A stretch of 64,000 nt of DNA from an uncultured Bacteroidales bacterium. GTDB lineage: Bacteria > Bacteroidota > Bacteroidia > Bacteroidales > UBA932. Position numbers and translations under genes: made by a program. Location: positions 44,983-108,982 of the forward strand of contig ONOH01000006.1 of assembly GCA_900319405.1 (NCBI GenBank), in the 5' to 3' direction. The notes under the pieces are model-generated. The model made no database searches. It saw nothing but the letters and a program-made list of their open reading frames with translations, and was not told where the DNA came from. This document shows, piece by piece, positions 18,208 to 51,887 of the stretch (its first letter is position 1; each line of letters starts with the position of its first letter).

Positions 18208-18234
18208 GATTCCTCGACTATGCTCAGAATGACA
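18208..18234 (-). repeat. SERSEES-type interspersed repeat, copy 1 (upstream of lspA)
   Basis: A roughly 27-base unit in the 36-base gap between the DksA-type gene and lspA. On the coding strand it reads TGTCATTCTGAGCATAG and ends GAGGAATC, two bases before the lspA ATG. It is the most diverged intergenic copy (TCGAGG where others have TGAAG). Confidence 0.8.
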
Positions 18235-18241
18235 AAAGCCA

Positions 18242-18643
18242 TTATTTACGGCCGGTCTTTTCCAGAATAGCCTTGCCTTCTACGGTTGTGGTAGCGTGCG
18301 GCACCAGGCGGAGACGTTCCTTGGGAATGAGTTTTCCGGTGACGCGGCAGATGCCGTAGGTCTTGTTTTCGATGCGGACGAGGGCGGCTTCCAAGTTCTG
18401 GATGAACTTGTACTGGCGCTGGGCCAGTGCTCCGGCCTCTTCCTTGGAGAGCTGGAAAGCGCCGTCATCCTCCACCGTCTTGAAGGTGGGGGCAGTGTCC
18501 AGGATATCGTTTCCACCGGCGTGGGTCATAGCTTCCCGAAGGGTGTTGTACTCCGTGCGGGCCTTTTCCAACATCTCGTTGATAATGCCGCGGAATTCTT
18601 CCAGTTCCTCGTCGGAATAGCGGGTTTTGGTGTTCTCTGCCAT
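18242..18643 (-). CDS. DksA/TraR-family protein with degenerate zinc finger
   Basis: A 133-residue protein with a long N-terminal coiled coil (about 10-85) and a C-terminal DksA/TraR finger region. DksA-type proteins bind RNA polymerase in its secondary channel and modulate initiation with ppGpp. Only one of the four zinc cysteines remains (YGICRVTGKLIPKERLRLVPH); I recall the same degenerate form from other Bacteroidota. It lies 6 bases downstream of ileS and is probably co-transcribed. The name is by family; the regulatory role here is inference. Confidence 0.85.
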   Translation of the reverse strand: MAENTKTRYSDEELEEFRGIINEMLEKARTEYNTLREAMTHAGGNDILDTAPTFKTVEDDGAFQLSKEEAGALAQRQYKFIQNLEAALVRIENKTYGICRVTGKLIPKERLRLVPHATTTVEGKAILEKTGRK

Positions 18644-18649
18644 AATTAG

Positions 18650-21600
18650 TCAGCGTGTTACAGTCAGTTTGATGGTCCCTTCCGTCCATTCCACTTCCGT
18701 GGCGGAGGCAGGCGCATCGGCAAAGGCTTTCAAGCCGATGGAAAGGGACAGGGTTTGGGCTTTCACATATTCCCCGAAAGCGGATAGGGCTTCCACCAGG
18801 TCCTTGTCGTCGGAGTAAACCTCGGTGACGATACGGTCGGTGACTTCGAAACCAGAACTCTTGCGCAGGTTCTGTATGCGGTTAACCAGTTCACGGGAGA
18901 GGCCTTCACGGCGCAGCTCCGGCGTCACTTCAATGTCCAGGGCGATGGTGAGGGATCCCTCGGAGGCCACCAGCCATCCGGGCACATCCTCGGAAGAGAT
19001 GGCATAGTCTCCGGGGTTCAGGAGAACATCCCCGCCGGGAAGGACCAGGGTATAGCTTTCCCCAGCCGATTCCGCCTTCTGGATAGCGGCAATCACCGGC
19101 TGCTCCAGCGAGCCGAAGGCGGCGGCAATCTCTTTCATACGGGCACCGTAGGTCTTCCCCAGCACCTTGAAATTGGGTTTGATGCGAAGGGTCATAATGC
19201 CGGTGGTATCGGAAATGAATTCCATTTCCTTGACGTTCACCTCGGCCAGAATGATATCCTTCACCGCCTCCAGGCGGGCGCGGACCTTCTCCGAGATGAC
19301 GGGAATCATCAGCTTCTGCAGCGGCTGGCGTACCGGAATATTCACCTTCTTGCGAAGGGCCAGTACCAGCGTGGTAGCCTGCTGGGCCAGGGCCATCCGC
19401 TCCTCCAGTTCGCTGTCCACCACGGAGGCTTCGGCCTCGGGCATCAGGACAAAGTGGACCGATTCTTCGCTGCGCTTAGCATGACAGGCATCGCCCTGAG
19501 AAGACTGGGTAAGGTCCAGATAGAGCTGATCCATAAAGAACGGGGCGATGGGGGCGGCCAGGATGGCCACATCCACCAGTACCTTGTGCAGCGTGGCGTA
19601 GGCGGCCTGCTTGTCCGGAGTCATTTCCCCGGCCCAGAAACGGGCGCGATTCAGTCGCACGTACCAGTTGGAGACATCGTCGCAAACGAAGGTTTCCAGG
19701 ATTCGGCCAGCCGTTTTCACATCGTAGTCTTCATACGCAGCCCGAACGTCCCGGATAACGGAATTAAGTTTAGACAGGATCCAGCGGTCCAGTTCCGTCA
19801 GCGATTCTTCACTACGCTCAGAATGACAGGAGTTGGCGTCGGAGGGACAGGACCAGCCGTCGATATTGGCATAGCGGGCAAAGAACGCATAAGTATTGTA
19901 CAGCGTGCCGAAGAACTTTCGGCGGACATCGGCCACACCGTTTTCGTCGAACTTGAGGTTATCCCACGGCTCGGCATTGGTGAGCATATACCAGCGGAGG
20001 GCATCCGCCCCATAGGTGTCCAGGGCCAGGAACGGGTCCACGGCGTTGCCCAGGCGCTTGGACATCTTGTTACCGTTCTTGTCCAGCACCAGGCCATTGG
20101 AAATCACCGTCTTGAAGGCGGGCGTTCCGGAAATCATCGTATGGATGGCGTGCAGGGTATAGAACCAGCCGCGGGTCTGGTCCACGCCTTCGGCTATGAA
20201 ATCGGCCGTAGCCCCGAAAGCGGGGGTATCCAGGCCCCTGAGCCCCTCCTGGGCGTAAGGCATAGCACCGGAATCGAACCAGACGTCGATGAGGTCGCTT
20301 TCGCGGACCATCTTCTTTCCGGAGGCCGATACCAGGAAAATCTCGTCCACATACGGGCGGTGAAGGTCTATCCTGTCGTAGTTCTCCAGGCGCATATCGG
20401 CCGGATCGAAACCGTTGTCCTTCAGCGGATTGGAGGGCATAATGCCGGCAGCGACCGCCTTTTCGATTTCCTCATATAACTCTTTCACCGAGCCGATGCA
20501 CTTTTCTTCCTTGCCGTCCTCGGTGCGCCAGATGGGCAGCGGAGTGCCCCAGTAGCGGCTGCGCGAGAGATTCCAGTCCTGGATGTTCTCCAGCCACTGG
20601 CCAAAACGGCCGGTGCCCGTGGAAGCGGGCTTCCAGTTAATTTCCTTGTTCAGGGCCACCATCTGCTCTTTTACGGCAGATGCCTTGATGAACCAGCTGT
20701 CCAGCGGATAGTACAGGACCGGAAGGTCCGTACGCCAGCTGTGCGGATAACTGTGCACGTGCTTCTGCACCTTGAAGGCCCGCCCGTCGGCCTTCATCAT
20801 TACGCAAAGGTCTATGTCCAGCGTGCTGTCTTCCTCCAGATGCTCGAAATACTGCTTGTAACCGGCTTTCACATAACGGCCGGAATAGTCCCGGTAAGAA
20901 GGGGCCACCGTGGCGGCGTATGCGGGATCCATATCTTCCAGGCGCATAAAGCGGCCCTGGCGGTCCACCTGCGCCTGCGGGTTGCCGTCCCGGTCCACGG
21001 GCATAATGGCACCGATGCCGGCGGCGGCGGCCACCCGTTTGTCATCGGCCCCGAAAGTGGGGGCGATATGCACGATGCCGGTACCCTCCTCCGTGGTCAC
21101 ATAGTCTCCGGAAATGACGCGGAAAGCGTCTCCGTCCGGACGGAACCAGGGAATGAGCTGCCGGTAGCGAAGGCCCACCAGCTCACTGCCCTTGATGCGG
21201 CCCGGGAGCACCTCATGCTCCAGCTTGGGGCCGAAAAGCGACCCCACAAGTGCCTCGGCCACGATATAGACGGCCTGGGCTCCGGTATAAGGATTGGCGG
21301 AACGCACCTTCACATAGTCGATGTTGGGACCCACGCACAGGGCCGTGTTGGATGGCAGGGTCCAGGGGGTAGTGGTCCAGGCCAGGAAATAGAGTTCTTC
21401 CTCTCCATCCACCCGGAACTGCACCGTGGCCGTGGTGTCGCTAACGTCCTTGTAGCAGCCGGGCTGGTTGAGTTCGTGGGAACTCAGGCCCGTGCCGTCC
21501 GTGGGCGAATACGGCTGAATGGTGTATCCCTTGTACAGGAGACCCTGGTCATAGATTTTTTTCAGGAGGTACCAGAGGGTTTCGATATAACGGTTATCGT

Positions 21601-22051
21601 AGGTGATGTACGGGTCTTCCATATCCACCCAGTACCCTACGCGCTCTGTCATCAACTCCCATTCCCGGGTGTACTTCATCACCTCCGTGCGGCAGGTGGC
21701 ATTGTACTCCCCGACCGACACTTTGCTGCCGATATCGGCCTTGGTGATGCCCAGCTTTTTTTCCACGCCCAGTTCCACAGGGAGTCCGTGGGTGTCCCAT
21801 CCGGCACGGCGGTTCACCTTGTAGCCGGTCTGGGTCTTGTATCGGCAGATGGCATCCTTGATGGAACGCGCCATCACGTGGTGGATGCCCGGCATCCCGT
21901 TGGCAGACGGAGGGCCCTCGAAAAAAATGAACGAAGGAGCCCCCTCGCGGATGTCCAGAGACTTTCGGAATGCCTGGATCTGTTTCCATCTTTCCAGAAT
22001 CCTGTTTCCGGTCCCGGTTAAATCGAGCCCCTTATATTCTTTGAATGTCAT
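18650..22051 (-). CDS. ileS: Isoleucyl-tRNA synthetase
   Basis: Charges tRNA-Ile. At 1,133 residues it is the long, eukaryote-like form. The ATP-site HIGH element is replaced by GMPGIHHVMARSIKD, as in other Bacteroidota, and KMSKRLGN is intact. The editing domain lies between (TTTPWTLPSNTALCVGP to about 400), and the anticodon-binding domain follows LTELDRWILSKLNSV. Two copies of the SERSEES-type repeat are read in frame: CHSERSEES just before the anticodon-binding domain (about residue 745) and CHAKRSEES about 110 residues later. Both add residues where the family usually has none, so they are likely tolerated insertions in loops. Confidence 0.97.
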   Translation of the reverse strand: MTFKEYKGLDLTGTGNRILERWKQIQAFRKSLDIREGAPSFIFFEGPPSANGMPGIHHVMARSIKDAICRYKTQTGYKVNRRAGWDTHGLPVELGVEKKLGITKADIGSKVSVGEYNATCRTEVMKYTREWELMTERVGYWVDMEDPYITYDNRYIETLWYLLKKIYDQGLLYKGYTIQPYSPTDGTGLSSHELNQPGCYKDVSDTTATVQFRVDGEEELYFLAWTTTPWTLPSNTALCVGPNIDYVKVRSANPYTGAQAVYIVAEALVGSLFGPKLEHEVLPGRIKGSELVGLRYRQLIPWFRPDGDAFRVISGDYVTTEEGTGIVHIAPTFGADDKRVAAAAGIGAIMPVDRDGNPQAQVDRQGRFMRLEDMDPAYAATVAPSYRDYSGRYVKAGYKQYFEHLEEDSTLDIDLCVMMKADGRAFKVQKHVHSYPHSWRTDLPVLYYPLDSWFIKASAVKEQMVALNKEINWKPASTGTGRFGQWLENIQDWNLSRSRYWGTPLPIWRTEDGKEEKCIGSVKELYEEIEKAVAAGIMPSNPLKDNGFDPADMRLENYDRIDLHRPYVDEIFLVSASGKKMVRESDLIDVWFDSGAMPYAQEGLRGLDTPAFGATADFIAEGVDQTRGWFYTLHAIHTMISGTPAFKTVISNGLVLDKNGNKMSKRLGNAVDPFLALDTYGADALRWYMLTNAEPWDNLKFDENGVADVRRKFFGTLYNTYAFFARYANIDGWSCPSDANSCHSERSEESLTELDRWILSKLNSVIRDVRAAYEDYDVKTAGRILETFVCDDVSNWYVRLNRARFWAGEMTPDKQAAYATLHKVLVDVAILAAPIAPFFMDQLYLDLTQSSQGDACHAKRSEESVHFVLMPEAEASVVDSELEERMALAQQATTLVLALRKKVNIPVRQPLQKLMIPVISEKVRARLEAVKDIILAEVNVKEMEFISDTTGIMTLRIKPNFKVLGKTYGARMKEIAAAFGSLEQPVIAAIQKAESAGESYTLVLPGGDVLLNPGDYAISSEDVPGWLVASEGSLTIALDIEVTPELRREGLSRELVNRIQNLRKSSGFEVTDRIVTEVYSDDKDLVEALSAFGEYVKAQTLSLSIGLKAFADAPASATEVEWTEGTIKLTVTR
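19461..19487 (-). repeat. SERSEES-type repeat, copy 2 (in frame inside ileS)
   Basis: Read as CHAKRSEES in IleS. It differs from the common form at several bases (GCTAAGCGCAGCG on the coding strand), so it is either an older insertion or under selection as protein. Confidence 0.75.
19803..19830 (-). repeat. SERSEES-type repeat, copy 3 (in frame inside ileS)
   Basis: A near-consensus copy read as CHSERSEES, right before the IleS segment LTELDRWILSK. It uses the same reading frame as the other intragenic copies. Confidence 0.85.
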
Positions 22052-22069
22052 ATTTTTTGTCTATTTTTG
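22041..22069 (+). promoter_or_regulatory. Promoter of cvpA
   Basis: TTG, 18 bases, then TATTTTTG. Transcription would start near 22076. It is interleaved with the ileS promoter in a 68-base gap, so RNA polymerase may be unable to occupy both at once. Confidence 0.65.
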
Positions 22070-22087
22070 CACTCGTTTTTAAGGTCA

Positions 22088-22118
22088 CAAAGTTAAGCAA
22101 TTAAACTGGGATTCACAA
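22088..22118 (-). promoter_or_regulatory. Promoter of ileS
   Basis: On the minus strand TTG, 20 bases, then TAACTTTG. The predicted start near 22081 gives a 30-base leader, too short for a T-box or attenuator. Confidence 0.65.
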
Positions 22119-22119
22119 T

Positions 22120-22617
22120 ATGAATACACTGGACATCGTCATCCTTCTGCTCTTTATTCCCGGAATCGTCCGCGGGCTGTCCAAAGGCTTCCTGGAACAG
22201 GCGATTTCCCTTGTGGGTGTCGTCCTCAGCGTCTACCTGGCCTACAAGTTCTCCGGCTTTGCCTGCGACATCCTCCAGAACTACATCACCGTCTCCGAAA
22301 CGGTGCTGCACGTAATCGGCTTTGCAGCCGTCCTGGTGGTGGTTCTGCTGCTGGTGATGCTCATTTCCAAGCTGGTGACCAAAATGGCCGAAATGGCCTC
22401 CCTCGGCTGGCTCAACAAGGTGCTGGGCATCGCCTTCGCCCTCTGTACCACGGCCCTTGTCATCGCCATCCTCATCATTCTTTTCGACACGGTCAACGTA
22501 AAATTCGAACTGGTCAAAAGCCCCATCCTCCAGGAGTCCGTCCTCTACGGCCACCTGAAAGACTTCGGATACTTCGTCTTCCCCTACCTGAAGCAGCTTC
22601 TGATGAAGGCTTCTTAA
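22120..22617 (+). CDS. CvpA-family membrane protein
   Basis: A 165-residue inner-membrane protein with four predicted helices, beginning TLDIVILLLFIPGIVRGLSKG as in CvpA (named for colicin V production). Conserved features are the early Gly-Arg-Gly-rich turn and the amphipathic tail. The true role in the envelope is not settled in any species. It stands alone on the plus strand between ileS and tsaB, and its stop lies one base from the tsaB stop. Confidence 0.8.
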   Translation: MNTLDIVILLLFIPGIVRGLSKGFLEQAISLVGVVLSVYLAYKFSGFACDILQNYITVSETVLHVIGFAAVLVVVLLLVMLISKLVTKMAEMASLGWLNKVLGIAFALCTTALVIAILIILFDTVNVKFELVKSPILQESVLYGHLKDFGYFVFPYLKQLLMKAS

Positions 22618-22618
22618 T

Positions 22619-23308
22619 CTACCACAACTGCTTTTTGGAAACCGTGGCCACGAAGTCCTTCAGATAGAAGGGCTCGAAATAGGCCACATCCTGGAACCGG
22701 CCTGCACGAAACGCTTCATAGGCCAGCGGAGCCATATTTCCGGCCATCGGAAAGGCCTCCAGGAAACGGGCATTGGGATGGGAAATCACCTCCTGGCATT
22801 TGAGAGCGCCGTCTCCCACAAAAAAGACGGGTCCCTCCTCCAGCTGGGCCGCAAAGGACCGGGCCGATACCACCATCGGCTCCACCTCCGTAAGACGCTT
22901 GCCTGTAGCGCTATAGACAGCCGTGTAGACCTCCATCCTGCGGGCGTCGAGCATCGGGACGATGAAAGAGTTTTCACTACGCTCCGAATGACTGAGGGCA
23001 CCGGCCACCAGAATGTCCAGCGTACCCACGGCAAGAAGCGGAATCCCTGCGCCAAAGGCAAGGCCCTTGGCCGTGGAGACCCCCACGCGAAGCCCCGTGT
23101 ATGAGCCGGGGCCTGCGCTGACACACACGGCATCGCAGTCCCTGATAGAGATGCCGGCCGAATCCAGCACCTCCTTCACCAGCGGAGCCGTAAGGGCCGC
23201 CTGCTGCCGGGCTTCGGTACACAGCCGTTCACTGACAACAGTCCTGTCCTCAGACAATGCCACGGACAGGACTGCGGTAGAAGTTTCAATGGAGAGGATG
23301 CGCACCAT
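22619..23308 (-). CDS. tsaB: tRNA threonylcarbamoyladenosine synthesis protein TsaB
   Basis: Scaffold partner of TsaD in making the t6A37 modification of tRNAs that read ANN codons. The 229 residues have an ASKHA N-terminal half (ILSIETSTAVLSVALSED) and the signature SAGPGSYTGLRVGVSTAKGLAFG (about 66-88). A SERSEES-type repeat is read as SHSERSENS at about residue 108, before FIVPMLDARRMEVY. The start overlaps the stop of the thioredoxin-like gene by one base. tsaC, tsaD and tsaE are not in the window. Confidence 0.93.
   Translation of the reverse strand: MVRILSIETSTAVLSVALSEDRTVVSERLCTEARQQAALTAPLVKEVLDSAGISIRDCDAVCVSAGPGSYTGLRVGVSTAKGLAFGAGIPLLAVGTLDILVAGALSHSERSENSFIVPMLDARRMEVYTAVYSATGKRLTEVEPMVVSARSFAAQLEEGPVFFVGDGALKCQEVISHPNARFLEAFPMAGNMAPLAYEAFRAGRFQDVAYFEPFYLKDFVATVSKKQLW
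22968..22995 (-). repeat. SERSEES-type repeat, copy 4 (in frame inside tsaB)
   Basis: Read as SHSERSENS in TsaB. It is slightly diverged (GACT for GACA, TCCG for TCAG on the plus strand). It falls in the loop joining the two halves of the N-terminal ASKHA domain. Confidence 0.75.
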
Positions 23309-24417
23309 TACAGTTTCCGGCGAAGGTATTCACGGAGGGATGCGGCGTCGCTCACCCGGGCATCCTGGTCGATGGTTCCGTCCACGATGAACCAGGCCAT
23401 CGGCAGGTTGGATACTCCGTATGCGAACACGTAAGAGGACTGCGCCCCGCGGGTATCGCACACATTCACCCAGGGCAGATTCTGGTTGCGAACGGCCGAT
23501 GCCCAGGCCGCCTTGTCCTCATCCAGAGACACGGCGTAGATCTCGAAACCCTTGGCGTGGTAAGCCTCGTAAATGGGGACGAGGGAGTCCAGGTTGAACA
23601 TCTTCTGCCCAGCCGTAGCCTGCCAGAAATACACCATTGTCACCTTGCCCAGATTTTCACTCAGTTTTCTCTCCTTGCCATCCATTCCGGAAAGGGCAAT
23701 GTCTATGAAACCCACTTCCTCAGCATCGAGAAGGCGGTTGTTCACTTCCAACTGGGACAAGCGGCGCTCCGCCTCCTTTTCCAGCGCCTTCACATAACGG
23801 GACTCCGGATACACCGTCTTGAGCGAATCACAGATGCCGCGCATCAGGATGCCGTCCGTGGGCTGGCTGAAGACAGGGAACGAAGGATTCACCTGCTGAA
23901 ACAGCACGGGAACCACCGTAAGCGAATGCGGATTGCCCACCACATAGGCCACCCGGTCCCGGTAATAGGAAACATAGCGGCGGGAAATATCCGGCAGGCC
24001 GTCTTCCTTGTCCAGGATGTGGCGGATATCCCTTTGGAAAGCGTTGTACTCCTTCTCCACCAGCTGGAGCCGGACCGATTCTTCGGACCCCTCCACTGTA
24101 TAGGAGCCAAGGGTATCGGCCGTCACCTTCACCTTGTCTCCCTTCTGCAGAAGCAGGGAGGCAATCTGGCGCTCTCCGTAGAACAGGTAGATAAATTCGG
24201 GCTTGCCCTCGGCGATATCCAGACTGTAGCTGAATTGTCCGCCGGATCCCACCTTAACGCTGTCCAGCACCTGGAAACGATTCACATCCAGCAATTTGAC
24301 AACCACCTGCCTGCCATCCCCCTCTTGCAGTCTGCCCTCGATTTGCGTATTCTTCCCGCAGGAAACAAACGCGGCCAGGACGGCAGCGGCGACAAAAAAG
24401 CGCTTACAGTTTCTCAT
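23308..24417 (-). CDS. Thioredoxin-fold lipoprotein lacking the CxxC motif (DUF4369-like N-terminus)
   Basis: A predicted lipoprotein of 369 residues: MRNCKRFFVAAAVLAAFVSC puts the lipobox Cys at residue 20. Starting at this ATG overlaps the HIT gene by 14 bases. The N-terminal half (QIEGRLQEGDGRQVVVKLLD to about 110) resembles DUF4369, common before thioredoxin domains in Bacteroidota. The C-terminal half has a TlpA/AhpC-like fold (KVTMVYFWQATAGQKMFNLD, then NLPMAWFIVDGTI). Where TlpA proteins have WCxxC, this one has QATAGQK, so it cannot do thiol-disulfide chemistry. A chaperone or binding role is possible; function is unknown. Confidence 0.78.
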   Translation of the reverse strand: MRNCKRFFVAAAVLAAFVSCGKNTQIEGRLQEGDGRQVVVKLLDVNRFQVLDSVKVGSGGQFSYSLDIAEGKPEFIYLFYGERQIASLLLQKGDKVKVTADTLGSYTVEGSEESVRLQLVEKEYNAFQRDIRHILDKEDGLPDISRRYVSYYRDRVAYVVGNPHSLTVVPVLFQQVNPSFPVFSQPTDGILMRGICDSLKTVYPESRYVKALEKEAERRLSQLEVNNRLLDAEEVGFIDIALSGMDGKERKLSENLGKVTMVYFWQATAGQKMFNLDSLVPIYEAYHAKGFEIYAVSLDEDKAAWASAVRNQNLPWVNVCDTRGAQSSYVFAYGVSNLPMAWFIVDGTIDQDARVSDAASLREYLRRKL

Positions 24418-24808
24418 ACTCGGCAAAGATTTTTTGGGCAATGCTCTTCATTTCCTCCGCTTCCGGCTGCAGCTTGGCCTTGCGGAAATCCATATCACCC
24501 TCGCTCTGGAGGGGAACCAGATGAATGTGCGTGTGGGGCACTTCCATTCCCAGCACGGCAATGCCCACCCGCCTGCACGGGACAGCGGCCTTCAAAGCCA
24601 CGGCCACTTTGCGGGCAAAAGCCCAGAGGCCTTCGTATGTGGCAGTGTCCAGATGGAAAATGTAATCATCCTCCACCTTCTTGGGAATGACCAACGTATG
24701 GCCTTTGGCCAACGGAGAAATGTCCAGGAAAGCATAGAAATCCTCGCTTTCCGCGCACTTGTAGGAAGGAATTTCGCCCTTGGCGATTTTGGTGAAAATG
24801 GTAGCCAT
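24404..24808 (-). CDS. HIT-family nucleotide hydrolase
   Basis: A 134-residue purine nucleotide phosphoramidase/hydrolase of the HIT superfamily. The catalytic histidine triad is HTHIHLVPLQ (about residues 99-108). The N-terminus (TIFTKIAKGEIPSYKCAES) is typical of the HinT/protein-kinase-C-interacting type. It sits 3 bases downstream of greA and overlaps the next gene. Cellular role is not well defined in most bacteria. Confidence 0.92.
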   Translation of the reverse strand: MATIFTKIAKGEIPSYKCAESEDFYAFLDISPLAKGHTLVIPKKVEDDYIFHLDTATYEGLWAFARKVAVALKAAVPCRRVGIAVLGMEVPHTHIHLVPLQSEGDMDFRKAKLQPEAEEMKSIAQKIFAEYEKL

Positions 24809-24811
24809 AAC

Positions 24812-25279: not shown

Positions 25280-25301
25280 ATTTTTTTATTTTTTTACACT
25301 C

Positions 25302-25337: not shown

Positions 25338-25352
25338 AGCTGTATGTCTCTG

Positions 25353-25381: not shown

Positions 25382-25392
25382 GCGACTCCGAC

Positions 25393-25429: not shown

Positions 25430-26800
25430 GGACTTCAATTCCTCTTCGAAGTCTTTCAGGGCCTTCAGGGCCTTGGGGAAAAGGATGATAATGGCAATGA
25501 CGGTGAGCCAGGCCATCAGTCCAACGCCAATGTCCCCCATCTTCCAGACCAGGTTGGCGTCCTTGACGGAGCCGAAGACGATGGACGCCAGCAATATCGC
25601 CTGCAGGCCGCGCACACTGACTTTTTCCCAGAGGGGAGCCCGCTTGCGGAAGAGGTACAGGATACTGGATTCGGCATAGAAATAATAGGCCAGAAGGGTG
25701 GTGAAAACGAAGAACAGCATGGCCACGGCCACAAACTCGCTGCCGAAGCCCGGAAACACCGTATCCACGGCGCTCTGCGTGAAGGCCGTGTAGTTTTCTC
25801 CCAGCGCCGGCGCATGGGAAACCACTACCGTACCATTCGCATCCATCACATTGTAGGTGCCGGAGGTGAGGATCATCAAGGCCGTGGCGGTGCACACCAG
25901 CAAGGTATCCACATAAACGGAAAACGCCTGCGCCAGGCCCTGCTGGGCCGGGTTATGGACATCGGCCGCCGCCGAAACAATGGCACCGGTACCCTGACCC
26001 GCCTCGTTGGAGAACAGGCCCCGCTTCACGCCCAGGGAGATGGTGCTGCCCAGGATGCCCCCAAACAGGGGATCCATCCCGAAAGCACTGCGGAAGATAA
26101 GGCTGAACATGGCTGGTACTTCGTGGATATGGACAGAGACCACCACCAACGACAGGAGGATGTAACCCGCCGCCATAATGGGCGTCACGAAAGCAGCCAC
26201 CTTGGCGATACGATGTACGCCGCCGATGACGACAAGGGCGGTGAGCGCTGCCAATGCAAGGCCCGTGACCAAAGGCGGGACAGAGAATGCATTACTCAGG
26301 GTGGAGGATACACCGTTGGCCTGCACGCCTGTCAGAAAGATGCCGCTGCTGAGAATGGTAATGACGGCCAGCAATACACCCGGCCAGCGCTTACCCAGTC
26401 CCTTTTCATAAAAAGTAAATGGACCGCCCCGGAAACCGCTCGAATGCGGAAACTTATAAATCTGGGCCAGGGTAGATTCCACAAAAGCAGTAGATGCACC
26501 CAGAAAAGCGACCATCCACATCCAGAACACCGCTCCGGGACCGCCGAAAGCAATGGCTGCAGCCACCCCCACGATGTTTCCGGTCCCCACGCGGCCGGAA
26601 AGGGCCAGGGAGAAGGCCTGAAAAGAGGAAATGCCATCGTCGCCCTCCTTGTTGCCGAAAAGCGTGGACACCATAAGCCTCAGCCGGCGCACCTGCAGAA
26701 AACGGGTACGGATAGAAAAGTACAATCCCGCCAGGAGTAGCAAAACCACCAGGACAGGATTCCAGACGATGTCGTTAAGCGTCGAAAAAAATTGCTCCAT
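25418..26800 (-). CDS. Alanine/amino-acid:sodium symporter (AGCS family)
   Basis: An inner-membrane secondary transporter of 460 residues with about ten or eleven helices. Family blocks are SGRVGTGNIVGVAAAIAFGG (about 70-90), then WMVAFLGASTAFVESTLAQ, and FSNEAGQGTGAIVSAAA (about 247-263). The likely substrate is alanine, glycine or a related neutral amino acid with Na+; this is family knowledge, not proven here. It starts inside the last 26 bases of ribF, so it is the last gene of the long xseA-glycogen-ribF transcript and is followed by a probable terminator. Confidence 0.92.
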   Translation of the reverse strand: MEQFFSTLNDIVWNPVLVVLLLLAGLYFSIRTRFLQVRRLRLMVSTLFGNKEGDDGISSFQAFSLALSGRVGTGNIVGVAAAIAFGGPGAVFWMWMVAFLGASTAFVESTLAQIYKFPHSSGFRGGPFTFYEKGLGKRWPGVLLAVITILSSGIFLTGVQANGVSSTLSNAFSVPPLVTGLALAALTALVVIGGVHRIAKVAAFVTPIMAAGYILLSLVVVSVHIHEVPAMFSLIFRSAFGMDPLFGGILGSTISLGVKRGLFSNEAGQGTGAIVSAAADVHNPAQQGLAQAFSVYVDTLLVCTATALMILTSGTYNVMDANGTVVVSHAPALGENYTAFTQSAVDTVFPGFGSEFVAVAMLFFVFTTLLAYYFYAESSILYLFRKRAPLWEKVSVRGLQAILLASIVFGSVKDANLVWKMGDIGVGLMAWLTVIAIIILFPKALKALKDFEEELKSKKE

Positions 26801-27752
26801 AACAGAAGTCTTTATCCTGCAATAATTGCTCCTTTAACCCATTCAGCGAAGGGAACTTACGCTCGTCCCGGATACGGCTGACAAAACGCAGGCGCAGCGG
26901 GAGGCCGTAAATATCCTCGTCAAAATCCAGGATGTGCGTTTCTATGGTCCGGGCCACACCGCCCACCGTGGGCCTGGTGCCGATGTTGCACATTCCCCGG
27001 AACACCTTCCCAAGGACCTCAGCTTCAACGGCATACACCCCATTGCAAGGCACCAGCTTGAGTGGTTCATACAATTGCATATTGGCCGTGGGAAAGCCGA
27101 TGGTGCGGCCCAGCCGGTTTCCGGCCACCACCACCCCGTACAGCCCGTACCGATAACCCAGCATCTCATTGGCCCGGTCCATTTCCCCCGCCTCCAGCGC
27201 TTTCCTAATCTTGGTGGAGGAAATGGGAGATTCTTCACTTCGTTCAGAATGACAGGGAGCCACCACCATAACAGGCAGGGGGGATAGGTAGTTTCCAGGT
27301 CCATGGCCACCCTCGGCCGTGTAAGAGGGAGGGGCCCAGCCACTGGCTGGGAGGGGTCGCGAAGCGACGGCCTGGAAACTACCTATCTCCCCTGCCGTCA
27401 ATTTATCGGCCCCGATATGGTTGTCGTAGCCCATGACTACGAGAGAGGCACCGTAACGCGCTTTGAGCATTTCCAAATACTCCTGAGCCTTCATGGCGGC
27501 AAACTCCCGCGTGAAAGGAATCACCTCCACGCGATCCGCCCCGGCCGACAGCAGACGTTCCCGTTTCTCTTCCGGCGAAGTGAGCAGGCGGAAATCCCGG
27601 GCATCATGCTGCAGAACCGTTCTGGGATGGGGCCAGAACGTGACGACAACGGCCTCCTCTCCCCTTTCCCGGGCAGAGGAGACCAATGTCTCAAGCACAT
27701 GACGGTGCCCCAGATGGACACCGTCAAAAAAACCTGTGGTCACTATGGACAT
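26775..27752 (-). CDS. ribF: Bifunctional riboflavin kinase/FAD synthetase
   Basis: Makes FMN and then FAD. I start it at the ATG giving MSIVTTGFFDGVHLGHRHVL, the usual nucleotidyltransferase motif; a longer frame only adds 15 residues translated from a repeat. The N-terminal adenylyltransferase half includes GYDNHIGADKL and SSTKIRKALEAGEM. The C-terminal flavokinase half has GNRLGRTIGFPTANMQL and NIGTRPTVGG. Between GADKLTAGEI and PISSTKIR lie about 50 residues that relatives lack. They come from a 123-bp inverted-repeat element (27274-27396) and a SERSEES copy, both in frame, so the protein is about 325 residues. Confidence 0.94.
   Translation of the reverse strand: MSIVTTGFFDGVHLGHRHVLETLVSSARERGEEAVVVTFWPHPRTVLQHDARDFRLLTSPEEKRERLLSAGADRVEVIPFTREFAAMKAQEYLEMLKARYGASLVVMGYDNHIGADKLTAGEIGSFQAVASRPLPASGWAPPSYTAEGGHGPGNYLSPLPVMVVAPCHSERSEESPISSTKIRKALEAGEMDRANEMLGYRYGLYGVVVAGNRLGRTIGFPTANMQLYEPLKLVPCNGVYAVEAEVLGKVFRGMCNIGTRPTVGGVARTIETHILDFDEDIYGLPLRLRFVSRIRDERKFPSLNGLKEQLLQDKDFCYGAIFFDA
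27229..27256 (-). repeat. SERSEES-type repeat, copy 5 (in frame inside ribF)
   Basis: A consensus copy read as CHSERSEES just before PISSTKIR of RibF. Its plus-strand sequence equals copy 6 over the whole unit, so the two were probably acquired or homogenised recently. Confidence 0.85.
27274..27396. mobile_element. 123-bp inverted-repeat (MITE-like) element inside ribF
   Basis: The ends are 26-bp inverted repeats matching at 25 positions: GGCAGGGGGGATAGGTAG... at 27274-27299 and its complement at 27371-27396. Inside are two smaller palindromes, CCCAGCC-ACT-GGCTGGG and TCGC-GAA-GCGA. The length is a multiple of three, and the element is open in the ribF frame (encoding GSFQAVASRPLPASG and so on). 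It has no transposase and I see no clear target duplication. It is a short non-autonomous element or a structured repeat. Confidence 0.75.
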
Positions 27753-27753
27753 A

Positions 27754-27781
27754 GATTCTTCACTTCGTTCAGAATGACAGG
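27754..27781 (-). repeat. SERSEES-type repeat, copy 6 (abutting the ribF start)
   Basis: A consensus copy filling most of the 48-base gap before ribF. On the coding strand it ends GTGAAGAATC, then one T, then the ribF ATG, so the GAAGAA stretch occupies the place of a ribosome binding site. Confidence 0.85.
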
Positions 27782-46530: not shown

Positions 46531-46781
46531 TCCTTGTTATACAGGCCGCAGGAGGCACAGGCATCGGAATACCGGCCGTCACACATGCTTTTTCCCTTGC
46601 CGCGGCGGGAAGCCAACATCTCCATTTCCTCCTGTTTGGCGCACTTGATGCCCCGCTTGCGCATTTCCGGGTTCGTGGAAATTTCTCCGTCGGGAAAAGG
46701 CCGGCGGAAAAAGAAGATGTTCACCCCGAGCAGCAGCACGGCGGCACCCACGAAAACGATGGCGGCAAGAAGGGTTTTCAC
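46527..46781 (-). CDS. Small Cys-rich single-pass membrane protein, unknown function
   Basis: An 84-residue protein starting with GTG. One N-terminal helix (TLLAAIVFVGAAVLLLGVNIFF) is followed by a basic, soluble tail with cysteines in IKCAKQEE, SMCDGRYSD and ACASCGLYNKE. The last three could bind a metal or form disulfides. I recall similar short membrane proteins from other Bacteroidota but no function. It lies 3 bases after prs and overlaps the lipid-kinase gene by 4 bases. Confidence 0.65.
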   Translation of the reverse strand: MKTLLAAIVFVGAAVLLLGVNIFFFRRPFPDGEISTNPEMRKRGIKCAKQEEMEMLASRRGKGKSMCDGRYSDACASCGLYNKE

Positions 46782-46784
46782 GGA

Positions 46785-47780
46785 TTACAAAGGGAATTCG
46801 GAGGAAATGGGTTCGTAATTATAGACGCGAAGAATCATCTTGGCGAAAGTTTCCGACAGGGTGACCACACGGAATTTGCTCTGGAAGGCCTTCTTGGACG
46901 GATCCAGAGGAATGGTGTCGGTCACATACACCTCGCACAGGGCGCTTTTGTCGATGCGCTCGTAAGCCGGGCCGGAAAGCACCGGATGCGTGGCGATGGC
47001 GCGGACACTGCTGGCCCCGCGTTTGAGGAGCTCGTTGGCAGCCTCGGTCAGGGTGCCGGCGGTGTCGATGATATCGTCAATGATCACGATGTCGCGTCCT
47101 TCCACCTCACCGATGGGCACGATTCTCTCGATCACGTTGGCCTTGGCGCGGGTCTTGTGGCAGATCACCACCGGAGTGTGCAGGCGCTTGGCATAGGCGT
47201 TCACGCGCTTGGCACCACCCATATCGGGAGCGGCCAGGGTGAGGGTGTCCTTGAATTCGGCATGCAGTTTCTGCAGGATGGCCAGGAAATCGTAGCTGGC
47301 ATAGAGGTGATTGACGGGAAGGTCGAAAAAACCCTGGATCTGGTCTGCGTGGAGGTCACAGGTCATGACGGCATCGGCACCGGCCACCTTGAGCATATTG
47401 GCCACCAGCTTGGCGCCGATGGCGGTACGCGGCTTGTCCTTGCGGTCCTGCCGGGCCCAGCCATAATAGGGAATGACGGCAATCACTTTGTTGGCCGATG
47501 CGCGCTTGGCGGCATCGATGGTAAGCAGCAGTTCCATCAGGTTGTCGGCCGAAGGGAAAGTGGACTGGATAATGAAACAAGTGGCTCCCCTGACACTTTC
47601 AATGAAATAGGGCTGGAATTCTCCGTCGCTGAAACGGGAGACTTCCAGGGGGCCCAGGACCACATCGGGGTCCGTTTCGGGTTTCATCCGGTTCATTGCA
47701 GCAACTACTTTCTCCGCGAAATAGCGGGAAGCATCACAGGTAAACAGCGCCATCCGGTGCTTGTGGACATCGTTGATCAT
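46785..47780 (-). CDS. prs: Ribose-phosphate pyrophosphokinase
   Basis: Makes PRPP from ribose 5-phosphate and ATP, for nucleotide, His, Trp and NAD synthesis. The 331 residues show VIPYYGWARQDRKDKPRTAI, DLHADQIQGFFDLPVNHLYA and the PRPP-binding DIVIIDDIIDTAGTLTEAA (about 218-236). The N-terminus is about 15 residues longer than in E. coli. It overlaps the engB stop by 4 bases. nadE in the same run uses a product of PRPP-dependent NAD synthesis. Confidence 0.96.
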   Translation of the reverse strand: MINDVHKHRMALFTCDASRYFAEKVVAAMNRMKPETDPDVVLGPLEVSRFSDGEFQPYFIESVRGATCFIIQSTFPSADNLMELLLTIDAAKRASANKVIAVIPYYGWARQDRKDKPRTAIGAKLVANMLKVAGADAVMTCDLHADQIQGFFDLPVNHLYASYDFLAILQKLHAEFKDTLTLAAPDMGGAKRVNAYAKRLHTPVVICHKTRAKANVIERIVPIGEVEGRDIVIIDDIIDTAGTLTEAANELLKRGASSVRAIATHPVLSGPAYERIDKSALCEVYVTDTIPLDPSKKAFQSKFRVVTLSETFAKMILRVYNYEPISSEFPL

Positions 47781-48373
47781 AATGTTTGTAGAATGGATCC
47801 TATGTAATTGATGATTTCTTCTTTTCCGATTCCCTTCACGGAGGAGGAAACAAAACAGGGAGGCAGGTCCTCCCAGTCTTCTAGAAGGCGGCTCTTGTTC
47901 TTGAGAATCTGCCGCTCAAGGGCTTCCGGGCCCTGTTTGTCGGACTTGGTAAAGATGATGCCAAAGGGGATTCCCTTTTCTCCCAGTTCCGCGATGAAAC
48001 GAAGGTCCACCTCCTGCATATCGTGGCGGGAGTCTATCAGGACCATCAGCATCACCAGTTCTTCGGAATGGTTGATGTAGTCCCAGATAATGTGGCGCAG
48101 GCGGGCCCGCTCCTTGTCCGGCAGCCGGGCATAGCCGTAGCCGGGAAGGTCCACGAGGTACCACTTGTCGTTGATGAGGAAATGGTTCACCAGCTGCGTC
48201 TTTCCCGGGGTCTGGGAGGTTTTGGCCAGCTTGGAATTGTCCGTGAGCATATTGATGAGGGAGCTCTTTCCCACATTGGAACGGCCGATGAAAGCGAATT
48301 CCGGGGCCCTGCGCGCAGGTTTTCCGGAAACCCGCGTGCTGCTGCCTACAAATTCTGCCTTGGTGATTTTCAT
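47777..48373 (-). CDS. engB: Ribosome biogenesis GTPase YihA (EngB)
   Basis: GTPase needed for late 50S assembly. The G1 motif GRSNVGKSSLINMLTD (about 32-47), G3 LVDLPGYGYARL and G4 FTKSDKQG are all present. Three in-frame ATGs exist. I prefer the one giving MKITKAEFVGSSTR, because a GGCGGA lies six bases before it; the ATG two codons upstream is also possible. It is the first gene of an eight-gene minus-strand run, with a TATCTTTG element at 48396-48403 just upstream. Confidence 0.95.
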   Translation of the reverse strand: MKITKAEFVGSSTRVSGKPARRAPEFAFIGRSNVGKSSLINMLTDNSKLAKTSQTPGKTQLVNHFLINDKWYLVDLPGYGYARLPDKERARLRHIIWDYINHSEELVMLMVLIDSRHDMQEVDLRFIAELGEKGIPFGIIFTKSDKQGPEALERQILKNKSRLLEDWEDLPPCFVSSSVKGIGKEEIINYIGSILQTL

Positions 48374-48440
48374 AGACATTCCGCCAAATGCAGTGCAAAG
48401 ATACAAATAATAATTGGCGAAAAAAAGCTATCTTTGCCGT

Positions 48441-48875
48441 ATGGAGCAAGATGAAAAATTTATGCGCGAAGCCTTGCGCGAAGCCCTGGCGGCATCGGCC
48501 GAAGGGGAAATCCCCATCGGAGCGGTGGTGGTCTGGAAGGGACGCATTATCGGCCGTGGGCACAACCAGACCGAAAGGCTGCAGGACACCACTGCGCACG
48601 CGGAAATGATTGCCATAACCGCCGCAACCGGGGCAATGGGCGGCAAATACCTGAACGAGTGCACTTTATACGTCACGGTAGAGCCCTGCCCGATGTGTGC
48701 CGGAGCCCTGGCCTGGTCCCAGATGGGCCGCATTGTCTATGGTGCGCCGGACCCCCGCCGCGGCTATTCCCTCTTCTCTCCTTCCCTCCTGCATCCCCGG
48801 ACGGAAGCCTCCGGCGGGGTCCTGATGGAGGAATGTGCCCAGTTGATGGTGGATTTTTTTAAAAGCAAAAGATAA
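48441..48875 (+). CDS. tadA: tRNA-specific adenosine deaminase
   Basis: Converts A34 to inosine in tRNA-Arg(ACG). The zinc site is visible as TTAHAEMIAI (His and catalytic Glu) and EPCPMCAGAL (two Cys). At 144 residues from the ATG used here (MEQDEKFMREALREAL) it is of normal length; a nine-codon extension upstream is unlikely. TATCTTTG at 48429-48436 ends only 4 bases before the ATG, so the transcript may be leaderless. The DJ-1 gene follows with no gap. Confidence 0.94.
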   Translation: MEQDEKFMREALREALAASAEGEIPIGAVVVWKGRIIGRGHNQTERLQDTTAHAEMIAITAATGAMGGKYLNECTLYVTVEPCPMCAGALAWSQMGRIVYGAPDPRRGYSLFSPSLLHPRTEASGGVLMEECAQLMVDFFKSKR

Positions 48876-49445
48876 ATGAAAGGAGTTAATATTTTTCTGG
48901 CCGCCGGCTTCGAAGATATGGAAGCCCTGGGTACCCGGGACGTACTGCTGCGCGGCGGCGTACAGGTCAATCTCATTTCCGTAACGGACGAATACCTTGT
49001 GGAAAGTTCTCACGGACTGTCCGTGTCTGCCGATACCTCCTGGGCCGATCTGGAAGTAATGGAGCCGGGTACCGGTCCGGAAGATGTAATGATTTTCCCG
49101 GGCGGGATGCCGGGTTCCAAAAACCTTGCGGAGCACGAAGAACTGATGGAAATCCTCCAGGACCATTGGGCGCGCGGCGGCACCGTTGCCGCCATCTGCG
49201 CCGCTCCCGGCCTGGTGGTTTCCCGGCTTTCCGGTCTGGAAGGAAAGCGCTTTACCTGCTTCGACGGCTTTGAGCAGCCGCTCATCGACAAGGGCGCCAT
49301 CTTCACCCCAGAAAGCGCTGTCACCGACAGCCGGCTCATCACCGGACGGGGCGCAGGGCACGCCATCCATTTCGGCCTGGCCATTCTGGAAGCCCTCAAA
49401 GGGCCCGAGACCGTTGCCAAAGTACGGGCCGGCCTTATGCTTTAA
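48876..49445 (+). CDS. DJ-1/PfpI-family protein (possible protein deglycase or glyoxalase)
   Basis: A 189-residue DJ-1 superfamily protein. The nucleophile-elbow Cys is in VAAICAAPGLV (about residue 108), with the supporting Glu in LAAGFEDMEALG (about residue 15) and GRGAGHAIHFGLAILEAL near the end. DJ-1 proteins detoxify methylglyoxal or repair glycated molecules; which applies here is unknown. Its ATG directly follows the tadA stop, so they form a two-gene unit. Confidence 0.9.
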   Translation: MKGVNIFLAAGFEDMEALGTRDVLLRGGVQVNLISVTDEYLVESSHGLSVSADTSWADLEVMEPGTGPEDVMIFPGGMPGSKNLAEHEELMEILQDHWARGGTVAAICAAPGLVVSRLSGLEGKRFTCFDGFEQPLIDKGAIFTPESAVTDSRLITGRGAGHAIHFGLAILEALKGPETVAKVRAGLML

Positions 49446-49446
49446 G

Positions 49447-49477
49447 TTTTGCTTTTCCCGAAAAAGTGTTAACTTTG
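49447..49477 (+). promoter_or_regulatory. Promoter of tRNA-Gln
   Basis: TTTTG, 18 bases, then TAACTTTG, overlapping the end of the DJ-1 gene only slightly. Transcription would start near 49484, about 5 bases before the tRNA. Confidence 0.7.
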
Positions 49478-49488
49478 CACCCCGGAAT

Positions 49489-49559
49489 TGAACTGTGGTG
49501 TAATGGTAGCACTAGGGATTTTGGTTCCCTCAGTCAGCGTTCGAATCGCTGCAGTTCAA
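49489..49559 (+). tRNA. tRNA-Gln, anticodon TTG
   Basis: A cloverleaf fits: acceptor TGAACTG with CAGTTCA, D stem GTGT/GCAC (one G-T), anticodon arm AGGGA-TTTTGGT-TCCCT giving anticodon TTG (reads CAA), and T arm CAGCG-TTCGAAT-CGCTG. The weak U1-A72 end pair is usual for tRNA-Gln. The discriminator A is followed by CCCA, not a properly placed CCA. A hairpin follows at once. Confidence 0.92.
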
Positions 49560-49565
49560 CCCATC

Positions 49566-49595
49566 GCGGCGGCTCCTCTTCCGAGGGGCCGCTTT
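49566..49595 (+). terminator. Hairpin after tRNA-Gln
   Basis: GCGGC (49566-49570) pairs with GCCGC (49588-49592), with an inner 5-bp stem around a TTCC loop and a three-base bulge. Only three T follow, so it is a moderate terminator. It sits in the short gap before the convergent alr end. Confidence 0.5.
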
Positions 49596-49612
49596 CATGT
49601 TCCGGGGTGCTG

Positions 49613-50719
49613 TCAGCGCGTAAGGATGCGGTGGATACGGCGGGGGACGGAGACCAGAATCTCGTAGGGGATGGTACCCAGGATGTCGGCCAGTTCGCTC
49701 ACGCTGGGATCATCGCCGAAGACGGTTACCGTGTCTCCGGCCTTGCAGGGAACGCCGGTAACATCCAGCATACACATATCCATACAGATATTGCCGATGG
49801 TGGGCACACGGTGGCCGTTCAGGGAGAAAGAGGCGCGGCCCCGTCCCAGGTGGCGGTCCAGGCCGTCGGCATACCCTACCGGGATGGTAGCGATGACCGT
49901 GCCTTCCCTGGCCTGACCCCATCGGCCATACCCTACCGTGTCGTCCGGTCCCAATTCCTTGATTTGCAACACCTTGCATTTGAGCGATGCCACGGCGGGG
50001 AGCTTTTTTTCCGGCAGGGCGCTGATGCCGTAAACCCCGATTCCGAGGCGCACCATGTCGAACTGGAATTGAGGGAAGCGTTCGATGCCGGCCGAGTTGA
50101 GGATATGGCGCATCGGCATGTAGCCGATGCCGTCGGCAATGTAGTTTGCGTTGTCGCGGAAAAGGTGAATCTGTCCCAGGGTGAAGCTGTCTTCCCGGGG
50201 GTCTTCGGCCACGCACAGGTGCGAGAATACGGCCTTTACTTTCACCTCGGGGGTGTCCTTCAGGTAGTCCACCAACTCCGGCAGTTCTTCGGTCATAAAC
50301 CCAAGCCGATGCATTCCGGTGTCCAGTTTGATGTGCACGGGATAATCCCTGAGCCCTTTTTCCCTCAGGACGGAAACCAGTTTCTGCAGGGAATAAAGAC
50401 TGGGAATGGAGGGCTCCATACGGGTTTCGATGATTTCGGGATAGAAATCGGTTCCGGCGGTGAGCACGAGGATGGGAAGCGAGATGCCGCAGCGGCGCAG
50501 TTCCAGGCCCTCGACCGGATAGGCTACGGCCAGATAATCGGCTCCGGCGCGCTGCATCATGGACGCGAACTCCACGCCGCCGTGCCCGTAGGCGTTGGCT
50601 TTGACCAGGACCAGCAGTTTGGTCTTGGGATCCAGCAGGGAGCGGAAGTACCGGTAATTGTCTGTGGCGGCTTTCAGGTTCAGCTCCAAACGGGAAAAAT
50701 CTTCCACGATTTCGCGCAT
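49613..50719 (-). CDS. alr: Alanine racemase
   Basis: PLP enzyme that makes D-alanine for peptidoglycan. The lysine that binds PLP is in LVLVKANAYGHGGVEFA (about residue 39). The second catalytic base, Tyr, is in DTVGYGRWGQAREG (about 261). VPTIGNICMDMCMLDVTG and DTVTVFGDDPSV complete the C-terminal domain. At 368 residues it is a stand-alone enzyme, not fused to MurF as in some Bacteroidota. TATTTTTG at 50739-50746 is a likely -7 box. Confidence 0.96.
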   Translation of the reverse strand: MREIVEDFSRLELNLKAATDNYRYFRSLLDPKTKLLVLVKANAYGHGGVEFASMMQRAGADYLAVAYPVEGLELRRCGISLPILVLTAGTDFYPEIIETRMEPSIPSLYSLQKLVSVLREKGLRDYPVHIKLDTGMHRLGFMTEELPELVDYLKDTPEVKVKAVFSHLCVAEDPREDSFTLGQIHLFRDNANYIADGIGYMPMRHILNSAGIERFPQFQFDMVRLGIGVYGISALPEKKLPAVASLKCKVLQIKELGPDDTVGYGRWGQAREGTVIATIPVGYADGLDRHLGRGRASFSLNGHRVPTIGNICMDMCMLDVTGVPCKAGDTVTVFGDDPSVSELADILGTIPYEILVSVPRRIHRILTR

Positions 50720-50756
50720 ACTATTGGCATTTACAGTGCAAAAATAACATTTATGT

Positions 50757-50772
50757 CTGACATTTTGCCATA
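50757..50772. promoter_or_regulatory. Shared 16-base motif between alr and the YugP-type gene
   Basis: CTGACATTTTGCCATA matches the motif at the lon start region at 15 of 16 positions. It lies 10 bases from the predicted alr -7 box and 7 bases from the TAAATTTG box (50780-50787) of the divergent metallopeptidase gene, a place where a repressor could block both. Confidence 0.45.
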
Positions 50773-50844
50773 AAAAGTGTAAATTTGCAAGAGGGCGCGG
50801 AATTTGTTAACAGACACAGTGCAGAATTTAAACTAGAAAAGAAT

Positions 50845-51522
50845 ATGTCCGGAACAAGTATTTGGATACTGATGATTTTAGTGATGGTGCTGAGTATGCT
50901 CATCCAGTCTATGCTCAAGAGCCGTTTTACCAAGTATTCCCAGGTACCGCTTTCCCTGAGCGGGGCAGAAGTGGCCAGCCGAATGCTCCAATCCCACGGA
51001 ATTCGGGACGTGAACATTGTCTCCATCCCCGGCAAGCTCACAGACCATTACGACCCCACCACCAAGACGGTGAACCTGAGCGAGGAAGTCTATTATGGCC
51101 GGTCGATAGCTGCCGCTGCCGTGGCCGCCCACGAGTGCGGGCACGTGGTGCAGCACGCCACGGGCTATGCCTGGCTCCGTATGCGTAGCGCCCTGGTGCC
51201 GGTGGTATCGTTCTCCAGCAACATTGTGTCCTGGGTTTTGCTGGCCGGTGTAATTTTCATCAATATCTTCCCTTCGCTCATTTGGGTCGGTATCGGCCTG
51301 TTTGCCCTTACTACGCTTTTCAGTTTCATTACCCTTCCGGTCGAGATCAACGCCAGTTCCCGCGCCGTCAAGTGGCTGGAAACGGCCGGCATCGCGAACT
51401 ATGAAACCAAGCCTATGGCCACGGACGCCCTTCGCTGGGCCGCTTACACCTATGTCATTGCCGCCATCGGCTCCCTGGCCACCCTCCTGTATTACATTTC
51501 CATCGCCAACCGCCGCAACTAG
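50845..51522 (+). CDS. YugP-family membrane zinc metallopeptidase
   Basis: A 225-residue inner-membrane peptidase with the zinc motif AAHECGHVVQHATGY (about residues 91-105) and helices at about 4-20, 120-145 and 150-170. FITLPVEINASSRAVKWLE is the family's second signature. I start it at the ATG after GAAAAGAAT, giving MSGTSIWILMILVMVLSML. The substrate is not known; stress-linked membrane proteolysis is a guess. It diverges from alr. Confidence 0.88.
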   Translation: MSGTSIWILMILVMVLSMLIQSMLKSRFTKYSQVPLSLSGAEVASRMLQSHGIRDVNIVSIPGKLTDHYDPTTKTVNLSEEVYYGRSIAAAAVAAHECGHVVQHATGYAWLRMRSALVPVVSFSSNIVSWVLLAGVIFINIFPSLIWVGIGLFALTTLFSFITLPVEINASSRAVKWLETAGIANYETKPMATDALRWAAYTYVIAAIGSLATLLYYISIANRRN

Positions 51523-51550
51523 CCGCCACACCCCACCTGCGGTAGGAACA

Positions 51551-51587
51551 CCCCGGACGCGCGACAAACGCGTTTTGGGGCGTTTTT
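51551..51587 (+). terminator. Terminator after the YugP-type gene
   Basis: CCCCGGACGCG pairs with CGCGTTTTGGGG, using G-U pairs and one bulge, around a 7-base loop, and CGTTTTT follows. It lies 28 bases past the stop. The gap to the convergent small gene otherwise contains nothing recognisable. Confidence 0.6.
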
Positions 51588-51628
51588 GCGCAAGTCGGGG
51601 CATCTAGGTGGGTCACTTTGCGGGACAA

Positions 51629-51859
51629 TCAGAAAAGCGTGGGGTGATTCTCTTCCAGTTCGGAAAGGATTTTGGACATGATGGCTTCCCGGAAAAGGGC
51701 GCTTTTGGCGTGCACCTTGAAGCGGGAGCAGTACTCCTTGATGGCGGCCATCTCACTGTCATTGAAATACAGTACGTGCCGGTTCTTGCGAAGCAGCAAG
51801 GCTTTCTGTTTGGCCAGGTAGGCGGGATCTACGCCGGGGATTTTCTTTTTTCGTGCCAT
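51629..51859 (-). CDS. Small conserved Bacteroidales protein, ribbon-helix-helix-like
   Basis: A 76-residue protein: a basic start (MARKKKIPGVDPAYLAKQKA), then a possible ribbon-helix-helix unit (HVLYFNDSEMAAIKEYCSRF and ALFREAIMSKILSELEE). I recall close relatives ending in ENHPTLF in many Bacteroidales genomes, without a known function. DNA binding is plausible but unproven. Its ATG lies two bases after a SERSEES-type repeat. It is the last gene of the lon-ung-coaD run. Confidence 0.75.
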   Translation of the reverse strand: MARKKKIPGVDPAYLAKQKALLLRKNRHVLYFNDSEMAAIKEYCSRFKVHAKSALFREAIMSKILSELEENHPTLF

Positions 51860-51860
51860 A

Positions 51861-51887
51861 GATTCTTCGCTTCGCTCAGAATGACAA
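51861..51887 (-). repeat. SERSEES-type repeat, copy 7 (abutting the start of the small RHH-like gene)
   Basis: Fills most of the 36-base gap before the 76-codon gene. On the coding strand it ends GCGAAGAATC, then T, then ATG, the same arrangement as before ribF. Confidence 0.82.

Follow-up and report, generated by a model that had tools for sequence, protein, structure and literature searches.

Tagged hairpin repeats in and between genes of an uncultured Bacteroidales bacterium, and their association with a solitary GIY-YIG nuclease gene

The DNA considered here is a stretch of 64,000 nucleotides from an uncultured Bacteroidales bacterium of the UBA932 lineage (assembly GCA_900319405.1, contig ONOH01000006.1, positions 44,983 to 108,982), and "the window" denotes the whole of it. 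It carries a 26-base repeat, copies of which lie inside the genes ileS, tsaB and ribF or just before start codons. The repeat is an imperfect hairpin that resembles the repetitive extragenic palindromes (REPs), of the class tagged with TGTC or CGTC, rather than a peptide element. Hairpins of this class are associated in other genomes with the gene of a small GIY-YIG nuclease, and the bracketing of this solitary gene by hairpins is a new observation. The relevant features of the window are the following:

18208–18234, minus strand: degenerate repeat copy just upstream of lspA (TGTCATTCTGAGCATAGTCGAGGAATC), 6 mismatches, one base longer
18653–22051, minus strand: ileS, host of two copies (TIGR00392, 953 bits)
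19461–19486, minus strand: repeat copy inside ileS, read CHAKRSEES
19803–19828, minus strand: repeat copy inside ileS, read CHSERSEES
22622–23308, minus strand: tsaB, host of one copy (TIGR03725, 174 bits)
22968–22993, minus strand: repeat copy inside tsaB, read SHSERSENS
26778–27752, minus strand: ribF, host of one copy (TIGR00083, 211 bits); start inferred, open frame to 27797
27229–27254, minus strand: repeat copy inside ribF, read CHSERSEES
27754–27779, minus strand: repeat copy directly upstream of the likely ribF start codon (...GAATC-T-ATG)
51861–51886, minus strand: repeat copy directly upstream of the gene at 51632–51859 (...GAATC-T-ATG)

The seven copies claimed in an earlier note on this DNA were all found at the positions it named. 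They read TGTCATTCTGA... on the minus strand, which is also the strand of the neighbouring genes, lspA being identified from family models like the three host genes. Against the 26-base consensus, TGTCATTCTGARCGNAGYGAAGAATC, five copies have 0–2 mismatches, the one in tsaB has 4 and the one upstream of lspA has 6. The three copies outside genes each lie just upstream of a start codon (lspA, ribF and the gene at 51632–51859).

The genome of this bacterium (2.13 Mb in 59 contigs, 89% complete) contains 67 copies at up to three mismatches, as against none for the reversed pattern, and a mononucleotide shuffle of 442 kb gave no match even at up to six mismatches; a chance origin is therefore excluded. 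Sixty-five of the 67 were found again in the fetched stretches and form the base of the start-codon counts: 14 adjoin a start codon in the sense direction and 7 in the antisense direction.

What do the copies do inside genes? Alignment with 29 relatives per gene bears out short in-frame insertions into essential enzymes, as the earlier note had proposed. The insert is absent from all 29 relatives at both ileS sites and in tsaB, and it is present in two of 29 (G019 and G028) in ribF; these polymorphic insertions sit within stretches that vary among the relatives themselves. All four window copies are indeed read in one SERSEES-like frame, and genome-wide the same frame, HSERSEES or a close variant, is used by 14 of 16 intragenic copies. 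The hosts are ileS (twice), tsaB, ribF, murB, rmlD, metG, mutY, aroC, rsmA, an MBOAT gene, fmt, a SpoU methylase gene and the end of an amidohydrolase gene, while the two remaining copies are antisense, in mnmA (ILRCVQDD) and polA (ILHFVQND). This count takes in the tsaB copy with its 4 mismatches, L068 (in the MBOAT gene, outside the family match) and L079 (just beyond the family match and 13 codons short of the stop), and leaves out L003 (weak frame), L004 (N-terminal in xthA, possibly extragenic) and L076 (at the end of an open frame).

Four of the six reading frames of the element are free of stops, and 14 of 16 in one of four equally open frames has a probability of about 3e-7. A stricter automatic rule, applied to 279 exact copies from four groups of loci, places 18 within genes: 13 are read as sense HSERSEES and 5 as antisense ILRxxQND, the only other frame seen within genes, with none in the two further open frames. 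In other genomes, 3 of the 133 copies examined are intragenic by the strict rule and 130 are not clearly so. The frame bias is thus real, strong but not absolute. The direction bias holds in the window, where every copy is in the sense of the adjacent gene, and fails genome-wide, given the antisense copies in mnmA and polA and those at start codons. Randomness in strand and frame, one of the outcomes that the earlier note named as refuting its reading, gives a mixed answer: strand is random across the genome (35/32) and frame within genes is not.

Two side observations concern the same genes. Beside the ribF copy, at 27274–27396, there is a second, larger inverted repeat with 26-base arms, 96% complementary and 71 bases apart; its peptide (about residues 140–180) has matches elsewhere in at least G005, G027, G028, G034 and G036, so that it looks like another coding-sequence insert. 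In the tsaB gene of G021 (L421), VIARSEATWQS occurs twice, apparently from a TGTCATTGCGAG-type sister repeat at other TsaB sites.

In the folded coding strand the TGTC tag is unpaired; five pairs (ATTCT/AGAAT) form the stem, a GA/GA step separates them from two apical pairs (RC/GY), the tip is a GNA triloop, and a final C follows. In the reading frame, R, N and Y fall on third codon positions, and in the hairpin they are a base pair (R-Y) and the centre of the loop (N). In other genomes a pattern leaving R, N and Y free matched 143 exact copies, whose R-Y pair is G-C in 92, A-T in 47, G-T in 3 and A-C in 1. Since synonymous codons do not require the two positions to covary, the constraint is on the hairpin rather than on the peptide.

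The stem itself behaves in the same way. In 441 copies that have the tag and the GA/GA step with any stem, Watson-Crick pairs occur at pairs 1–5 in 438, 434, 423, 424 and 436 copies, against 328, 411, 404, 264 and 426 expected, and the GNA loop is present in 399. Whole tips of the hairpin are swapped, for example for GGCAGGTTTACCTGCC, with tag, stem and GA/GA kept. In a sister type with TTTC (TGTCATTTCGAG...CGAGAAATC), 23 of the 28 listed copies with two mismatches are compensatory, where chance would give 0.7% each. The tag is TGTC in the consensus and most copies, with CGTC in one (L073), and the tail after the hairpin is C, followed by T in 108 of 143. In DNA, both tandem GA steps and d(GCGAAGC) loops have an unusual stability.

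How far does the repeat reach? Within the genus it occurs at up to one mismatch in 16 of 37 genomes, the copy number over the genus ranging from 0 to 58, and in the rest of the order in one of 24 genomes. The exact pattern was found in at least 119 stretches of species-representative genomes, spanning at least 15 phyla (our own assignment from record titles), with the 26-mer nearly verbatim throughout; isolates among them are Pedobacter, Mucilaginibacter, Butyricicoccus, Calothrix and Sulfurihydrogenibium, and 50 species-representative genomes carry 1 to 472 copies each. Spread chiefly by phages or plasmids was rejected, a 30-mer occurring in one of 50,697 phage and six of 72,556 plasmid records. 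The repeat is also present in 82 viral-contig stretches, which could represent prophages or DNA of the host.

Copies wrap a small GIY-YIG gene in two Pedobacter species, a Nitrospirae bin and a viral contig. When the genes next to copies were clustered, most groups were related phage genes of viral contigs, and the GIY-YIG cluster comprised three loci. A search with a three-sequence profile found the gene in 37 of 51 genomes at 1e-8, and in 6 of the 37 genomes of the genus. In the latter it is present in five of seven genomes with at least 13 copies and in one of the 30 others (p 0.0003, with a cut-off picked after the counts had been seen).

The nuclease is solitary and about 96 residues long. 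It matches PF01541 at 47–63 bits, where the cut-off is 22.6, and a Pfam scan gave no domain besides GIY-YIG. The catalytic residues Y, Y, R, H, E and N are kept in 48–49 of 49 proteins, a set that contains one duplicate locus (L464 = L432). The predicted structure (predicted local distance difference test score, pLDDT, 87) is nearest to the solved structure of the UPF0213 protein BH0048 (E 4e-4), followed by Slx1 and UvrC domains with E-values of 0.08 or more. In Pedobacter frigidisoli (L165) the gene occurs twice in tandem amid 17 element copies, the second of the two being interrupted by a stop codon.

The association with hairpins is close. Counting one locus per genome in 33 genomes, a tagged hairpin lies within 200 bp of the gene on both sides in 22, on one side in 9 and on neither in 2; L464 was dropped as the same locus as L432, together with L424, L425 and L441, first fetched for the 26-mer. 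With nothing dropped, the 56 rows divide into 38, 13 and 5. Over 52 loci the hairpin density is 11.1 per kb within 50 bp of the gene and 0.21 at 800–1500 bp; at 115 control loci it is 0.12 per kb, so that the nuclease flanks are about 90 times richer. Each of the six genus genes stands between hairpins, which are of ATTCT type in three cases, of ATTTC type in two and of CGTC/CCGG type in one. Among the 37 two-sided loci the tags point outward on both sides in 24, and the same stem triplet is found on both sides in 32. In Calothrix (L434, L450) the gene is flanked on either side by hairpins of ATGTT and ATACT type in regular arrays, spaced about 55–61 bp.

Plasmid records picked by the protein alone gave a comparable picture. 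Of 18 loci (18 of 34 records fetched, with two Shinella and two Sphingobium loci sharing sites), ten have hairpins on both sides, two on one side and six on neither, and by eye, outside these counts, paired hairpins with altered tags stand at two Sphingobium, one Novosphingobium and one S. meliloti locus. The hairpins in these records are mostly of the classic CGTC form. The plasmid matches are mostly alphaproteobacterial, with Neisseria gonorrhoeae, groups that the excerpted text of PMC3733652 (Di Nocera 2013) names for CGTC REPs.

Do gene and hairpins form a unit? Two pairs of genus units from different genomes align from TGTC to GACA over 348 and 355 bp, and the similarity stops at the outer tags; the six genus units lie in mutually unrelated flanking sequence. 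In G091 seven copies of a longer unit of about 590 bp are 86–94% identical, three of them internally deleted (the comparison of units did not include L468). Azospirillum lipoferum has the hairpin-nuclease cluster between sufB and sufC, whereas three relatives lack it.

These data make it probable that hairpin, nuclease gene and inverted hairpin together are a mobile unit of about 350 bp, whose nuclease drives the spread of the hairpins. The complete unit, as met in relatives and in many phyla, would be an element with its tags usually outward, and solo hairpins would be its non-autonomous derivatives. The nuclease, with a fold nearest UPF0213 and then the structure-specific nucleases of Slx1 type, may recognise the extruded hairpin and cut at or near the tag; repair copying could then place hairpins elsewhere. 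Insertions into genes would persist mostly where they are read as hydrophilic HSERSEES, the frame bias being more simply survival of the frame that gives a tolerable hydrophilic peptide. A broader claim, advanced tentatively and with slightly more doubt than belief, is that this is a new class of minimal mobile element, in which a GIY-YIG unit of about 350 bp cutting extruded hairpins drives the whole TGTC/CGTC class (SERSEES repeats, classic CGTC REPs, Neisseria dRS3 and, by extension, Rickettsia palindromic elements RPE-4 and RPE-6) across most bacterial phyla.

Several observations weigh against a mobile unit driven by its nuclease. At 1e-8 the profile search found no GIY-YIG gene in 14 of 51 genomes, among them the present assembly and ones with 215, 172, 82 and 65 copies. 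CCGG-type repeats reach at least 13 copies in 11 of the 37 genus genomes, only three of which have any GIY-YIG match; G026 has 20 TTTC copies and no such gene, and G011 has its gene between TTTC hairpins even though ATTCT copies are commoner there. Five of 55 distinct GIY-YIG loci are without a hairpin within 200 bp. Finally, the calculated folding energy of the short hairpin is -1.9 kcal/mol, no better than that of shuffles. The gene could be absent from repeat-rich genomes because it was lost once the hairpins had spread, because assemblies are incomplete or because the nucleases have diverged.

This absence could also mean that hairpins are landing sites for the GIY-YIG gene, as REPs are for some insertion sequences, and that the gene is selfish in its own right and does not spread the solo hairpins. 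This alternative is rather unlikely. In its favour, REPs are reported to serve as targets of insertion sequences (PMC1525189), and Sinorhizobium K101 has hairpin sequence and no gene at the site of the cluster in Ak57. Landing accounts less well for the outward tags and shared stem triplets of most two-sided loci and for unit similarity that ends at the outer tags, and the three empty Azospirillum sites show no cluster.

Could another enzyme move the hairpins? The GIY-YIG genes would then be favoured neighbours, or the nuclease would trim or repair extruded hairpins for the host; a repair role for prokaryotic Slx1-like proteins is predicted in the excerpted PMC1564403, and the missing genes of repeat-rich genomes fit as well. 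Y1_Tnp, the candidate mobiliser that was tried, was rejected: 34 Y1_Tnp loci of the genus showed no recognisable copy, with one poor match. Since, in addition, the gene units are themselves repeated in G091, some with internal deletions, this explanation is improbable.

A regulatory RNA or DNA element selected at each site near gene starts might be suspected from the 14 of 65 copies that end -8 to +17 nt from a sense start codon, six of them directly before TATG; copy numbers of 0 to 58 within one genus, few shared sites where tested and the copies inside genes make it very unlikely. Hardly to be credited is one of the earlier note's two readings, that the element is kept for the inserted peptide, which the common frame of 14 of 16 intragenic copies and variation at third codon positions seem to favour and which is opposed by the R-Y covariation, by variable positions that are a covarying pair and a loop centre, by copies that elsewhere are mostly not clearly intragenic, and by the antisense copies in mnmA and polA.

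With a nuclease partner for the hairpins, the spread of CGTC-type REPs and the inserts in essential enzymes become directly testable. Among REPs it is unusual for a 26-base hairpin to stay almost unchanged over at least 15 phyla, and such constancy calls for a recognition enzyme that is shared widely. Should the unit of about 350 bp prove autonomous, it would be smaller than insertion sequences are known to be. Apart from all this, the end gene on the minus strand of the window contains a nine-base tandem repeat (63779–63978) coding for Gly-Lys-Asp-like triplets, collagen-like in character.

Among the matches listed in searches of the openly licensed PMC literature, no paper joins, by its title, GIY-YIG nucleases with REPs or dRS3, and none is by its title relevant to SERSEES or the repeat sequence strings. 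The closest known kind is the CGTC-tagged REPs, among them dRS3 of Neisseria and RPE-4 and RPE-6 of Rickettsia. As far as the excerpted text of PMC3733652 describes them, they share with the window element an unpaired CGTC/TGTC tag (CGTC often being TGTC or CCTC), A-T pairs opening the stem, high copy number, patchiness among related genomes and some copies in genes; moreover, classic CGTC hairpins flank the same GIY-YIG family, and the genus also has CCGG-type repeats that resemble the classic form. By the same text their stem is 8–9 bp, their loop 4–5 nt and their tail mostly CCA, whereas the window element has five plus two pairs split by GA/GA, a GNA triloop and C, then mostly T. Head-to-head dimers predominate among them; by our own reading, ten copies in this genome, not the greater part, have an opposite-strand hairpin beside the tag. 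It is the split stem that keeps the window element from being filed as a CGTC REP of that paper, a separation that follows its text; a GA/GA form may be drawn in its Figure 2. REPs are there often species-specific, and CGTC REPs are without a transposase, the question of the enzyme being left to future work; unlike those described in this text, window-type hairpins are near-identical across many phyla and have a nuclease partner.

Three other systems invite comparison. The likeness to Rickettsia palindromic elements drawn in the earlier note is apt, because the excerpted PMC3733652 puts RPE-4 and RPE-6 among the CGTC-tagged REPs; in-frame insertion into housekeeping genes is common to both, and the link runs through that source only. 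GIY-YIG homing endonucleases and Penelope elements (PMC1564403, in excerpt) are likewise selfish elements that carry a GIY-YIG nuclease, and differ in that here the domain is minimal and stands alone, at about 96 residues. The GTAG REPs, with their doublet hairpin forms (REPINs) and REP-associated tyrosine transposase (RAYT), follow the same working plan, short hairpins and a single-gene unit flanked by the same hairpins, but their tag is GTAG and their enzyme an HUH tyrosine transposase, where here the tag is TGTC and the enzyme a GIY-YIG nuclease.

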